Source of the DNA: Acidobacteriota bacterium
GTDB lineage: Bacteria; Acidobacteriota; Terriglobia; Acidiferrales; UBA7541
Direction of reading: 5' to 3'
Assembly: GCA_003224235.1 (NCBI GenBank)
Contig: QHYU01000145.1
Coordinates: 1 to 35,173, forward strand
DNA length: 35,173 nucleotides
The position numbers and the translations under genes are program-made. The notes beneath the pieces are model-generated. The model did no database searches. It saw nothing but the letters and a program-made list of their open reading frames with translations, and was not told the DNA's origin. Positions 11,905-16,642 of this stretch are shown here, piece by piece. How positions within the stretch are numbered: position 1 is the stretch's first letter; each line of letters begins with the position of its first letter.

Positions 11905-13170
11905 ATGAGTTCAGCCTCCCCCCGCACTATGCGCGTGCTCGGCCTGATGTCCGGCACCTCGGCCGATGGCATTGACGTGGCCCTGGTGCGCATTGCAGGC
12001 TCGCCGCCGAAGATTGCAGCGAAGCTGGAAAACTTCTTGACACTTCCATTTCCTCCCGCAGTCCGAGCCGCGGTCTTGCGGCTTGCCGAGGGCCAGCCCA
12101 CCACAACCGGCGAGATCAGCCAACTCAATTTTCTCTTGGGAGAGCTATTCGCCCGCGCGGCGCTGGGGGCTTGCCGGCGCTTCCGGGTTCCACCGCAGCG
12201 TATCGATCTAATCGGCTCGCACGGGCAGACGATTTATCACCAGGGCCACCCGGGCCCGTTCCTAAGCTCGGCAGCGCCACTGCCCCAGCGGCGAAATCGC
12301 CAGCGGAATGCGGTGGCTTCGGCAACGCTCCGCGGGCCGGAGAGAGTTGCCTCGACGTTGCAAATCGGCGAGCCCGCCGTCATTGCCGAGCGCACTGGAA
12401 TCACCACCGTTGCGGATTTTCGCCCTGCGGACATGGCCGCGGGCGGCCAAGGGGCGCCGCTGGTGCCCTTTGTGGACTACTTGCTTTACTGCGACGAACG
12501 CCGAGGGCGCGTGGCACTGAATCTAGGCGGGATTGCGAACGTCACGGTAATTCCGCGCGCCGCACGGCCTGACCAGGTCTTCGCCTTCGACACCGGGCCC
12601 GGCAATATGGTTATCGATGCGCTGGTGCGCCACTTCAGCCGCGGAAAGCAAACGTTTGACCGCGACGCCCGCATGTCACGGAAGGGCCGGTTCCTGCCAC
12701 GGCTGGTGAACGAATTACTGGGCGAGGCTTACCTGCGCCAGCCGCCGCCAAAGACGGCAGGGCGCGAACAATACGGCGTGGCTTACATGCAGCGATTGCT
12801 CGACTGGGGCCGCAAGCACAAGGCGCGCCCGGAAGATTTGGTGCGCACGGCCACAATCTTGACCGCGCTTTCAGTGGTGGATGCGTTTCATCGCTGGATC
12901 CTACCGTGCGCGAAGGTCGAGCAATTGATCGTCTCCGGCGGTGGCGCCCATAATCCGTTGCTGATGGCGCAGCTCGGGGCGGGGCTTTCCGGCATCGAGA
13001 TTGTTTCGTCAGCAGACTTGGGCATACCCGAGGACGCCAAGGAAGCTTTCGCCTTCGCCATCCTGGCCTATGAGACTTTTCACGGCCGTCCGGCCAACCT
13101 CTGTAGTGCAACGGGCGCCAAACATCCCGCTATACTCGGTAAGGTGATCTATGCGCAGAAAAGGAGCTAA
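11905..13170 (+). CDS. anmK: Anhydro-N-acetylmuramic acid kinase
   Basis: AnmK phosphorylates and opens 1,6-anhydro-MurNAc, released by lytic transglycosylases, to give MurNAc-6-phosphate for peptidoglycan recycling. The N-terminal LGLMSGTSADGIDVAL is the family phosphate-binding signature. IGSHGQTIYH, LQIGEPAVIAERTGITTVADFRPADMAAGGQGAPLVP, LNLGGIANVT, FDTGPGNMVIDA and the late VSGGGAHNPLLM follow in order. The protein is 421 residues, longer than the usual 360-390, partly from a basic insertion after IYHQGHPG (about residues 115-148). The ATG at 11905 has GGAG seven bases upstream. The gene starts 76 bases after mutS, and its last 20 bases overlap the start of the binding-lipoprotein gene, so the latter pair is probably co-translated. 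Confidence 0.95.
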   Translation: MSSASPRTMRVLGLMSGTSADGIDVALVRIAGSPPKIAAKLENFLTLPFPPAVRAAVLRLAEGQPTTTGEISQLNFLLGELFARAALGACRRFRVPPQRIDLIGSHGQTIYHQGHPGPFLSSAAPLPQRRNRQRNAVASATLRGPERVASTLQIGEPAVIAERTGITTVADFRPADMAAGGQGAPLVPFVDYLLYCDERRGRVALNLGGIANVTVIPRAARPDQVFAFDTGPGNMVIDALVRHFSRGKQTFDRDARMSRKGRFLPRLVNELLGEAYLRQPPPKTAGREQYGVAYMQRLLDWGRKHKARPEDLVRTATILTALSVVDAFHRWILPCAKVEQLIVSGGGAHNPLLMAQLGAGLSGIEIVSSADLGIPEDAKEAFAFAILAYETFHGRPANLCSATGAKHPAILGKVIYAQKRS

Positions 13171-14773
13171 AGGATGTAGCGGAGCCAAAGCAGGTTCCTC
13201 TACTTCGTCTACGCCCTTCATCTGCTTTGCTCTCCTTACCTTCTTGCTGCTGCTCGCGAGTTGTTCGAGCCCCCGGGCGGCTGACCCGGGCACGGTTACA
13301 TTCTTGATTGAAACCATGCCTGCCAATCTTGACCCGCGCATCGGCACCGATGCGCAATCGCAGCGACTCCACAGCCTGGTGTTCAGCGGCTTGCTCGAGC
13401 GAGACGCGGAGATGAATCTGCGCGGGGACCTAGCCGAGCGCTGGGAGTCTCCCGATCCTCTCACTTACGTCTTCCATCTTCGCCGCGGCGTGCGCTTTCA
13501 CAACGGCCGGGCACTTACTTCCGCCGATGTGAAGTTCACATTCGATTCCATCCTTTCCGGCGCCATCAAAACGCCGAAGCGGGGCGCCTTCCGCATGCTG
13601 GCAGCGGTGGAAACGCCCGATGCAGCGACCGTGGTGTTCCGCTTGCGCGAGCCGTTCGCCTCGTTTCTCTGGAATCTGGCGCGTCCATCCGTCGGGATTG
13701 TTCCGGCCGATGCGACGGCCGATTTCGCGCAGCATCCCATCGGAACGGGCCCCTTCCGCTTTCTGCGCGCGCGACAGGACGAAGAGGTCGTGCTCGAGCG
13801 CAACTCGAACTACTTCCGGCGCCCTCCGAGCATCGAACGCGTGCGCTTTCGCATCGTACCGGATGCCACGGTGCGCGCGCTCGAGTTGCGCAAGGGCACA
13901 GCGGATCTAGTGCTGAACTCGCTTTCGCCGGACATGGTGCCGGTGCTGGCGCGCCAGCCGGACTTGGAGGTCACCCAGCAGCCGGGCACGACCTATTGGT
14001 ACGTGGCGTACAACCTGGACGCCCCTGCGCTGGGACGGCGCGAGGTCCGGCAAGCGCTGGCCTACGCTACCGACCGCCGGGCGCTGGTGACCTATCTGCT
14101 GCGCGGGCAGGCGCGACTCGCGGATGGCTTGCTGCCGCCCAATCACTGGGCCTACGAGCCCAATGTGCCGCGCTACGAATACGATCCTGCGCGCGCCGAA
14201 CGGTTGCTCGACGCTGCGGGCTTCCCCCGTCCCGCCGGGGCCGGCGGGCACGCCATACGGCTGAAGCTGACCCTAAAGACTTCGACGGAAGAGATCACGC
14301 GGCTGCTGGGCGCGGTGCTGCAGGAACAGTGGCGGCGAGTGGGCGTCGAGCTCGAGCTACGCCCGCTTGAACTTGCCACTCTCTACGCTGACATCACTCG
14401 CGGCAACTTTCAGCTCTACACCTTGCGCTGGGTGGGCGGCAATAACGACCCGGACATCTTTGAGTTCGTTTTCCACTCGCGCAAGATCCCGCCGGACGGC
14501 GCCAACCGAGGCCACTATCGCAACCCGCGGCTTGACGTCCTGGTCGACCAAGCCCGCGTGGAGGCTGACCGCGAGCGGCGCCGGCAGCTCTACAGTGAAG
14601 TCCAGCGCATCGTGGCCGAAGACTTGCCCTATCTCAATCTCTGGCTCTCCGACAATGTCCTGGTGCACCGCCGACGCATCACTCAGGTGCAGCTCGCGCC
14701 CACGGGCGACTACGACTTTTTGGACGGAATCGTCCTGCAGGATTTGCCTCGAATACAGAAAAGTGGCCTGTAG
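13151..14773 (+). CDS. ABC-transporter peptide-binding lipoprotein (SBP family 5, DppA/OppA/MppA type)
   Basis: A 540-residue extracytoplasmic solute-binding protein. A signal peptide ends in the lipobox LASC, so Cys38 would be lipidated and anchor the protein in a membrane. The family-5 body follows: NLDPRIGTDAQSQRLHSLVFSGLLERD, LAERWESPDPLTYVFHLRRGVRFHNG, the marker LTSADVKFTFDSIL, HPIGTGPFRF and VRQALAYATDRRALV. AAGG lies eight bases before the ATG at 13151, inside the end of anmK. The family binds peptides, nickel or, in MppA, murein tripeptide; the overlap with anmK favours a cell-wall peptide, by inference. No permease or ATPase genes follow, so it must share a transporter encoded elsewhere. 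Confidence 0.93.
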   Translation: MRRKGAKGCSGAKAGSSTSSTPFICFALLTFLLLLASCSSPRAADPGTVTFLIETMPANLDPRIGTDAQSQRLHSLVFSGLLERDAEMNLRGDLAERWESPDPLTYVFHLRRGVRFHNGRALTSADVKFTFDSILSGAIKTPKRGAFRMLAAVETPDAATVVFRLREPFASFLWNLARPSVGIVPADATADFAQHPIGTGPFRFLRARQDEEVVLERNSNYFRRPPSIERVRFRIVPDATVRALELRKGTADLVLNSLSPDMVPVLARQPDLEVTQQPGTTYWYVAYNLDAPALGRREVRQALAYATDRRALVTYLLRGQARLADGLLPPNHWAYEPNVPRYEYDPARAERLLDAAGFPRPAGAGGHAIRLKLTLKTSTEEITRLLGAVLQEQWRRVGVELELRPLELATLYADITRGNFQLYTLRWVGGNNDPDIFEFVFHSRKIPPDGANRGHYRNPRLDVLVDQARVEADRERRRQLYSEVQRIVAEDLPYLNLWLSDNVLVHRRRITQVQLAPTGDYDFLDGIVLQDLPRIQKSGL

Positions 14774-15268
14774 ATTCAATAAGAGCGGCACCTCTGGCGG
14801 CTTGCTCGCCCCGAGCTTTCTGCAAGATGTGTAAGTCATTCCGCGAACCATGCTTCGAGGACAAGCCCTTCTCTCTCGAAAGGAAAGGGCTTCGGGGCAG
14901 CCAGCCACCAGGTATTCTCCCCGCACTGCCACCAGGTATTCTCCCGACAGTTAGTGTCAGGTTTCACCAACCGCGAATTCCAATAATCAACGGATTGCCA
15001 AGTCTTCCTCTATCAGGTAACAGATCACTCGAAGCTTAATTCTCATGGATCTCAGTATGCGCCGACCAAACGCCTGCGGCTTTAAGTGCCGGTGCGCCAG
15101 GCCGGCAAGCAAATTGAGATGCCGCTCAGCCAGCCCGTAGGGCCAAAGACAAGAGAGGGCACGGTCGGGCGAAAAAGACCCCGAGGAAGGGGCACTGACT
15201 GTGCTGATGCAATTCGATCAACCGGCAAGTTGGTTTTGCAGGCGTGATGCATGGGATGGAGATATGAG
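14774..15268. other. Intergenic region (about 495 bases) with small repeats, no gene seen
   Basis: I see no convincing coding frame. It holds an eight-pair hairpin (AAGCCCTT at 14863-14870 with AAGGGCTT at 14885-14892) without a T-run, which might still help end the lipoprotein transcript, and an 18-base direct repeat listed separately. The last 170 bases are GC-rich leader sequence of the subtilase gene with weak local hairpins. No clear promoter was found. Confidence 0.5.
14904..14945 (+). repeat. 18-base direct repeat, two copies with 24-base period
   Basis: GCCACCAGGTATTCTCCC occurs at 14904-14921 and again at 14928-14945, separated by six bases. It is non-coding as far as I can see. It may be a tandem duplication or a pair of binding sites; only two copies are present. 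Confidence 0.6.
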
Positions 15269-16642
15269 ATGAGGCGCAAAGTGGAACGACAGATTCTCGC
15301 ATCGCTGCTCGGGCTCGTCACCCTGCTGGGTATACCCCGCGCTGGCAGCGCATCCGACGAAGAGGGCGAGTTCATCCTTCGTTGTTCGCCAAAGGAGATC
15401 CAGGAAGTCGTCAGACGCCACGGGTTGACACTCATCCACTCGCACGAGAGCCAGGACATCCATTTTGTCCGCGCCCCGGCTGCCGCTCATCCGGAGCATT
15501 TTTTAAGCCACCTCAGGTCCGACCCGGATGTGAAGGGGATAGAGTCGGACACAGATGTGATGCTCCCGGAGGCGCCTGCGGGGCTAAGACTCGACCAGTC
15601 CATTGCTTCCATCCTCGACACGCTGGGCCGCCGGACACTGGTCCCTTTCTACGGGAGCCCGGTGTCGAGCGGTTACGTCAACCAACCGGCGATCATGCTG
15701 ATTCAGTGCGCGGAGGCCCATCAACTCGCCACTGGGGCCGGGATTGTGGCCGTGATTGATACGGGCGTGGACCCTAACCACCCCGTGCTGAGGGCCTCGC
15801 TGGTTCCGGGCTTTGACTTCACCCGCAACTTGCCTGGCATCCCTTCCGAGTTCGCCGATCTGGGCCAGTCCACCGCCTCTATCCTGGACCAATCCACGGC
15901 CTCCATCCTGGACCAACAGACAATCGTCATCCTGAATCAGTCCACCGCGTCGATTCTGGACCAGTCGACCGCGAGCATCTTGGACACCCGGCAAGTGCCA
16001 CGGACTTTTGGGCATGGCACTATGGTGGCCGGGATCATCCATCTGGTGGCGCCCACGGCGCGGATCATGCCCTTGAAAGCGTTCGAAGCCGATGGGACCG
16101 CTAGCTTGTTTGAGATCCTGCGCGCCATCTACTACGCCGTGGACCACGGGGCCAAGGTGATCAACATGAGCTTCAGCACGGAGCAGCGTTCAGCGGAGCT
16201 GAAGCTTGCGATCAAATACGCGGCCAGCCACGGGGTAGTCTGCGTCTCCTCCGCAGGCAACAACGGAGCCAAACTCCGCGTTTATCCGGCGGCGTTTGAT
16301 GACGTTTTGGGCGTGGGGTCAACGAGCAACCTGGATGCTCGCAGTACGTTTTCCAACTTCGGCGGCCAGGTCGTCACATTGGCAGCTCCGGGGGAAGGGA
16401 TCATTACCACGTATCCCGGCGGGCACTACGCCGCCGCCTGGGGCACATCCTTCAGCGCCGCCTTCGTTTCCGGGGGCGCGGCCCTTCTGCTGCAGGTGAA
16501 CACCCGAACAAATCAGGAGGCCGCCGCGGATGCGCTCGAAGAAAATGCCAAGGAACTCCCCGATAGACTGGGACTAGGAGAAGGGCGGATTGACTTGTAC
16601 CGAGCGCTGTTGAGCGTGCTACGGCCTGAGAGCCGAGACTGA
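15269..16642 (+). CDS. Exported subtilisin-like serine protease (S8) with octapeptide array
   Basis: A 457-residue secreted subtilase. A signal peptide (about residues 1-30) is followed by an inhibitor-I9-like propeptide (about 32-105). The catalytic residues are Asp164 in AVIDTGVDPNHP, His249 in GHGTMVAGI and Ser394 in GTSFSAAFVSG; the oxyanion Asn lies in SSAGNNGAK. Between the Asp and His motifs is an insert of five back-to-back copies of an eight-residue unit (QSTASILD; residues about 200-239), and a sixth copy (QSIASILD) lies at the propeptide/catalytic junction (about residue 110). I do not recognise this repeat. The start at 15269 is chosen because GGAG lies seven bases upstream; the ATG at 15251 is an alternative. 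The protease role is secure; the repeat function is unknown. Confidence 0.93.
   Translation: MRRKVERQILASLLGLVTLLGIPRAGSASDEEGEFILRCSPKEIQEVVRRHGLTLIHSHESQDIHFVRAPAAAHPEHFLSHLRSDPDVKGIESDTDVMLPEAPAGLRLDQSIASILDTLGRRTLVPFYGSPVSSGYVNQPAIMLIQCAEAHQLATGAGIVAVIDTGVDPNHPVLRASLVPGFDFTRNLPGIPSEFADLGQSTASILDQSTASILDQQTIVILNQSTASILDQSTASILDTRQVPRTFGHGTMVAGIIHLVAPTARIMPLKAFEADGTASLFEILRAIYYAVDHGAKVINMSFSTEQRSAELKLAIKYAASHGVVCVSSAGNNGAKLRVYPAAFDDVLGVGSTSNLDARSTFSNFGGQVVTLAAPGEGIITTYPGGHYAAAWGTSFSAAFVSGGAALLLQVNTRTNQEAAADALEENAKELPDRLGLGEGRIDLYRALLSVLRPESRD
15866..15985 (+). repeat. Five tandem 24-base units encoding the octapeptide array of the subtilase
   Basis: Five contiguous 24-base units encode QSTASILD, QSTASILD, QQTIVILN, QSTASILD and QSTASILD. 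An isolated related unit (QSIASILD) lies at 15596-15619. The units differ mostly at synonymous sites: Ser at position 5 is encoded TCT, TCC, TCG and AGC in the four matching units, while the peptide is unchanged. That pattern points to an old repeat held by selection on the protein, not a recent slippage product. Confidence 0.9.

Follow-up and report, generated by a model that had tools for sequence, protein, structure and literature searches.

Matched octapeptide copies in Acidobacteriota subtilases co-vary with the TPR domain of a neighboring TPR-CHAT protein

The subtilase gene and its octapeptide array

The DNA analyzed here (the window) is a stretch of 35,173 nucleotides from an Acidobacteriota bacterium (assembly GCA_003224235.1, contig QHYU01000145.1). 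An open reading frame on its forward strand (15251..16642, 463 amino acids) encodes an orphan member of a family of array-bearing S8 proteases; translation could equally well begin at the ATG at 15269. The assignment to the S8 proteases was borne out by a Pfam match (PF00082, E=3.6e-41) and by the catalytic residues Asp170, His255, and Ser400, which are encoded on the forward strand at 15758..15760, 16013..16015, and 16448..16450, respectively, and are invariant in our subtilase alignment (A1). The fold of the protein matches that of pro-subtilisin E (3whi), and the segment MRRKVERQILASLLGLVTLLGIPRAGSAS (15269..15352, forward strand) is a probable N-terminal export signal.

Tandem Repeats Finder detected a 24-base array at 15860-15985, between the Asp and His codons. 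The original prediction had read this array as five copies of QSTASILD. The array is real, and units 1, 2, 4, and 5 (15866..15889, 15890..15913, 15938..15961, and 15962..15985, all on the forward strand) are exact, but the third unit (15914..15937, forward strand) reads QQTIVILN and is a degenerate, in-register spacer that does not count as a matching copy; relatives have a spacer of the same length. Any two of the four exact units differ at 3-7 of 24 nucleotides, all of the differences being silent, and the serine codon is AGC in unit 5 against TCN in units 1, 2, and 4. A further copy, QSIASILD, which matches QSTASILD at seven of eight positions, lies between the propeptide and the catalytic domain at 15596..15619 (forward strand), just where it had first been placed. 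The array matched no solved sequence in the PDB and had no confident fold in two AlphaFold models (pLDDT about 40-50).

A search of the 4.57 Mb source genome with back-translated QSTASILD gave 29 matches, all in or adjoining a subtilase match, against none for the reversed control; the array is therefore not a product of chance. About a dozen subtilase copies and fragments are dispersed over contigs C1, C16, C37, C67, C71, C91, C126, C209, C221, and C225 of this genome, several of them truncated at contig ends. On contig C16 (locus L349, C16:1-9000), two array-bearing subtilases are found with genes for an ECF sigma factor, a TPR-CHAT protein, and a CxxC protein, and contig C91 carries a TPR-CHAT gene and a subtilase gene. 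The neighbors of the window gene encode MutS, AnmK, an SBP_bac_5 protein, a GGDEF regulator, and AcrB, and there is no ECF/TPR-CHAT/CxxC cluster in the window. The window gene is an orphan duplicate, probably with the TPR-CHAT protein of contig C16 as its partner. The SBP_bac_5 gene (13151-14773), of the oligopeptide-binding type, is located directly upstream of the orphan subtilase and has relatives in only three other loci.

A family of array-bearing subtilases

We collected 180 related subtilase genes, nearly all from Acidobacteriota, and found exact octapeptide repeats in 150 of them; the array-bearing members found were all from Acidobacteriota. The octapeptide differs between genes (QSTVAILD, QSTAAVLD, QSTAAILE, QHTAAMLD, QSTTPILD, QSTGAILD, and QRSLAFID are among the units) but matches within a gene, even between the propeptide junction and the Asp-His loop. 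The array is neither absent nor scrambled in close relatives, which keep it with an identical last tandem pair in 84 of 96 genes (at most 27 across 10,000 shuffles). Where both sites could be compared, the junction copy was exactly the loop unit in 17 of 22 genes and agreed with it at 6-7 of eight positions in the remaining five; L019, for instance, has GSPVSILD and L021 has ASTVEILD at both sites. The majority of genes retain at least two exact copies, and many have only one of the two sites; the more distant relatives L206, L212, L215, and L219 have tandem units at the junction only. A hydrophobic N terminus was present in 129 of 143 array-bearing subtilases. We found no earlier description of octapeptide repeats in subtilases in the literature searched and no occurrence of the six octapeptides searched for there, which, with the null search of solved sequences, is consistent with the earlier remark that the repeat belongs to no described family.

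Selection for identical copies

Copies could be kept alike at the DNA level, gene conversion or repeat expansion homogenizing them so that the identity of the peptides would have no function. L204 (G340 contig C448) has five QSLRAILE units that are nearly identical in DNA and represent a recent tandem expansion, and codon identity within genes is slightly higher than expected (0.43 against 0.38 between identical units, and 0.51 against 0.43 for junction-loop pairs). However, silent sites between units are near saturation and close to random while the peptides are identical, and recently changed units have no excess codon identity. Saturation is fast at silent sites, and an old conversion could therefore not be excluded from codon identity by itself, but serine codons can exclude it. 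The serine at position 2 is encoded by TCN in all copies in 119 of 122 genes and by a mixture of TCN and AGY in three of the 122, whereas at positions 3-5, where serine is derived, the two codon families are mixed between copies in 23 of 35 genes (Fisher p=7e-16, with genes that are not all independent). TCN and AGY are not one silent step apart, and thus the copies gained the same serine separately. On these mixed serines we rejected DNA homogenization as the source of copy identity and regard it as extremely improbable.

Unit-type changes were mapped on a catalytic-core tree built without the array: slots A and B changed 52 times each and only 56 times when taken jointly, at least 48 of the changes coinciding. 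The copies became alike through independent point mutations, with selection favoring identity, and the early suggestion that selection acts on the peptide is strongly supported by identical peptides over nearly saturated silent sites and by derived serines from different codon families. The evidence for copy matching (identical pairs, equality of junction and loop, joint changes, and serine codons) is independent of any hypothesis on a partner, and the family is a clear case in which repeat identity is kept by selection on the peptide and not by DNA homogenization.

A conserved gene cluster with a TPR-CHAT protein

In the relatives, the subtilase gene belongs to a conserved cluster, repeated throughout the phylum, of genes for an ECF sigma factor, a small CxxC protein, a TPR-CHAT protein, and the subtilase, often with an HD-GYP gene; in most of them the gene immediately before that of the subtilase encodes the TPR-CHAT protein. 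The ECF54 group of sigma factors has been noted in a review for its conserved subtilase and CHAT neighbors (PMC8999054). The partner protein contains TPR repeats followed by a C-terminal CHAT domain (PF12770, E=5.6e-58), with the catalytic His in 58 and the catalytic Cys in 60 of 61 proteins, and no HTH domain was among its Pfam matches. The same ECF/CxxC/TPR-CHAT cluster accompanies the junction-only forms of the subtilase, and array-bearing genes without an adjoining TPR-CHAT gene, such as that of the window, also exist. Among 89 genomes of the same GTDB family, a CHAT gene was present in 41 of 43 genomes with these subtilases and in 17 of 46 without them, a comparison in which lineage is uncontrolled. 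The octapeptide was sought in the neighboring proteins of the clusters and was absent from them.

A hydrophobic N terminus was found in only 3 of 61 TPR-CHAT proteins, and judged from these N termini the subtilase looks exported and the TPR-CHAT protein cytosolic, so that the two would meet only before export or after re-import. In 42 loci (within L009-L069), the small CxxC protein encoded near the TPR-CHAT gene contains H-x4-C-x2-C and resembles a zinc-binding anti-sigma factor, its Pfam result being just a weak CarboxypepD_reg match. An HD-GYP gene lies downstream of the subtilase in 23 loci (within L012-L068).

Covariation between the octapeptide and the TPR domain

We compared unit variation with the partner protein in 61 pairs of neighboring subtilase and TPR-CHAT genes, on which the contact pairs described below were chosen before being re-tested with 20 more; TPR residues are numbered as in the TPR-CHAT protein of L016. 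Unit variation tracked TPR divergence when the subtilase and CHAT were controlled for (partial r 0.21, p 0.0035); with CHAT left uncontrolled, the signal was weak (partial Mantel r=0.127, p=0.067), and CHAT divergence itself did not track unit variation (-0.18). In a column scan, the TPR region held the top associations, many of which were about 37 residues apart. Even octapeptide positions co-varied with TPR residues about one repeat apart, whereas odd positions did not. The co-varying states were D8 with R114, V6/I6 with I157/S157, A4/V4 with V194/A194, and S2 with H271.

As a null for this coupling, 204 subtilase-core columns were scanned identically. The association of position 2 with TPR residue 271 (r=0.81) exceeded all 204 columns, and that of position 4 with residue 194 (r=0.48) exceeded all null columns of similar diversity. 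Position 6 was most closely associated with residue 81 (r=0.46, above all of similar diversity), with residue 157 giving 0.33, and position 8 with residue 114 (r=0.62) fell in the top tenth of the null. Positions 1, 3, 5, and 7 were unremarkable against the same 204 columns, and position 5 coupled better to a subtilase column than to the TPR domain.

The pair 4-194 is complementary in size: Val, Thr, or Met at position 4 goes with Ala, Gly, or Ser at residue 194, and Ala, Gly, or Ser with Val or Ile, with few exceptions. With the 20 added pairs, its volume correlation was more negative than that of any other among 852 columns, and it came first among 400 columns for co-change; of 11 independent contrasts, 8.6 agreed with it and none opposed it (median p=0.004). 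Tallies for the other pairs were 60/61 for S2-H271, 39/40 for V6/M6-I/L157, and 68/70 for D8-R114, none of these three reaching 0.05 by itself on the small number of independent pairs available. Exceptions were the receptor on contig C16 of the source genome, with L157 beside I6, and L415, with A194 beside A4. The window peptide fits the C16 protein at three of four contacts (R114, I194, and H271) and not at L157, and in the C91 pair all four contacts fit. Residues 114, 157, and 194 recur at equivalent sites of consecutive TPR helices, each 13 residues ahead of the repeat's glycine, and a residue at this site faces the ligand. Conserved asparagines at TPR residues 161, 198, and 238 would be suited to contacts with a peptide backbone. 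The covariation suggests a putative peptide pocket in the TPR-CHAT protein.

Prediction on further pairs

The rules for residues 194, 271, and 157 were set down before new pairs were fetched. In a first hold-out they were right in 19, 20, and 13 of 20 pairs, respectively, the misses at 157 being mostly Asn beside Ile6. After the 157 rule had been widened to Asn and a rule for residue 114 added, all 40 of 40 residues were right in a second hold-out of ten new pairs (49-91 percent identity). For most hold-outs, a close relative in the training set follows the rule as well, and the residues of the nearest known relative would themselves satisfy the rule in 6 of 10 cases at 157, 9 of 10 at 194, and 10 of 10 at both 114 and 271; the informative cases are therefore those in which the relative points to the wrong residue. 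In L391, V4 is paired with A194, against I or V with A4 in its relatives L392-L394, and L481 (QSTSTVLE) has I157, against a nearest relative that carries I6.

A candidate ligand of TPR-CHAT proteins

Copy identity under selection, the gene cluster, covariation with size complementarity, and correct prediction on new pairs were all computed directly. They point to a previously undescribed peptide recognition system and, judging from the sequences, to an external partner, the TPR domain of the TPR-CHAT protein, in place of the roles first considered for the repeat (a self-associating or anchoring segment, an autoprocessing target, or a lock between propeptide and enzyme). The octapeptide copies are probably interchangeable linear ligands of a concave groove in the TPR domain of the partner TPR-CHAT (caspase-like) protein; the physical binding is what we infer from covariation in co-inherited genes. 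The peptide would lie extended, with residues 8, 6, 4, and 2 facing TPR residues 114, 157, 194, and 271. Each copy would have to fit one groove, and hence all copies in a gene would match; when the groove changed, all copies would change with it. The exported protease, bearing several copies in exposed segments, may release octapeptides outside the cell, and these may re-enter and switch the cytosolic TPR-CHAT protein in the manner of RRNPP pheromones, which are processed extracellularly and taken up by an oligopeptide permease. Release and re-import are proposed with less certainty than binding, by analogy with those pheromones. The full scheme, a peptide signaling system of Acidobacteriota in which a secreted protease would be the multi-copy octapeptide precursor and the receptor would be a cytosolic TPR-CHAT protein connected to an ECF sigma factor, with a specificity code that can be read from peptide positions and TPR repeats, is offered tentatively, as a possibility that we would rate somewhat below even.

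The main rival to release and re-import is capture of the subtilase precursor before export. The octapeptides would still be TPR ligands, never released, and the TPR-CHAT protein would dock on them in the cytosol, where the precursor might act as a protease substrate, as a brake, or as a means of sensing that export is blocked. The same unit-TPR covariation would result, and the hydrophobic N-terminal segment on the subtilase, with none on the TPR-CHAT protein, would allow a cytosolic meeting without re-import; the TPR-CHAT protein Csx29 cleaves a partner protein encoded beside it (PMC10028731). We nevertheless consider it rather unlikely, since docking alone leaves unexplained that at least two exact copies are kept in most genes and that the copies are placed in segments exposed on the folded enzyme.

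The other readings place the function of the units within the subtilase. Units that served as cleavage sites or pseudosubstrates matched to the enzyme's own active-site cleft would account for a copy at the propeptide junction, where autoprocessing occurs, for a length of eight residues, which is that of a protease cleft, and for units that end in D or E. The mutual information between unit and subtilase core is, however, accounted for by phylogeny and the apparent coupling vanishes once this is allowed for; the best subtilase column also scores below the TPR columns, and subtilases are usually less specific than exact identity over eight positions would require, so that an autoprocessing target is quite improbable. 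Identical units might instead pack together as beta strands or short helices, in one molecule or across several, in keeping with their identity within a gene, their divergence between genes, and their hydrophobic alternation. Such packing is very improbable: neither AlphaFold model gave the array a confident fold that would speak for self-association or anchoring, the copies occupy two unrelated sites with variable spacing, and coupling to a different protein is not what it predicts. Since many genes have just the junction or just the loop, the copies are not bound to one contact geometry, and a lock between propeptide and enzyme is likewise unsupported.

Relation to known systems

Binding of the octapeptides by the TPR groove would resemble the RRNPPA systems (Rap, NprR, PlcR, AimR, and others), in which a TPR protein with a concave groove is encoded beside the gene of an exported precursor with up to six identical peptide copies (PMC9765709). 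The subtilases that adjoin a TPR-CHAT gene likewise carry the copies and mostly the hydrophobic N terminus counted above, unlike the window's orphan, which has no such neighbor. The present systems differ from RRNPPA in that the proposed receptor has a C-terminal CHAT protease and not an HTH domain or a three-helix bundle, the proposed precursor is a subtilase, and the hosts are Acidobacteriota and not Firmicutes. A second likeness, in neighbor genes alone, is to ECF54-type clusters, in which an ECF sigma factor has carboxypeptidase-like, subtilase, and CHAT neighbors (PMC8999054); an ECF sigma gene with subtilase and CHAT neighbors was found here as well, for example in L349. Neither octapeptide arrays nor a matching of TPR domains to ligands turned up in the literature searched, and our matching of units to the TPR domain suggests a possible reason for the recurring subtilase-CHAT-ECF association. 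The locus of craspase (type III-E Csx29) also encodes both a TPR-CHAT protease and an RpoE-type sigma factor (PMC10028731, PMC9729208), whereas in the clusters that we examined we noticed no gene for a CRISPR effector and the ligand is apparently a linear octapeptide carried by the subtilase. Pro-subtilisins with an inserted linker (3whi, and pro-Tk-subtilisin 2e1p) share the overall fold and the propeptide arrangement, but the junction and Asp-His octapeptide arrays are unmatched among solved sequences. The literature searched held no prior description of TPR-CHAT proteins with peptides and no ligand for a non-CRISPR TPR-CHAT protein; the octapeptide is a candidate for such a ligand of these caspase-like proteins, with a proposed recognition code that can be tested.

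Other repeats in related subtilases

Matches in a plasmid search were only distant S8 proteases. The related subtilases of L242 and L249 have other junction repeats, DGGETILPL and GGSWSI, and that of L314 (G531 contig C200), which lacks QSTxxxxD, has NPAVLALLN repeats at the junction and in the loop, on a short contig with no TPR-CHAT gene. A subtilase of L202 and L344 (G304 contig C43) has 15 exact copies of QSTGAILD; 14 lie ahead of the catalytic domain within longer super-repeats, and the remaining one is in the Asp-His loop.
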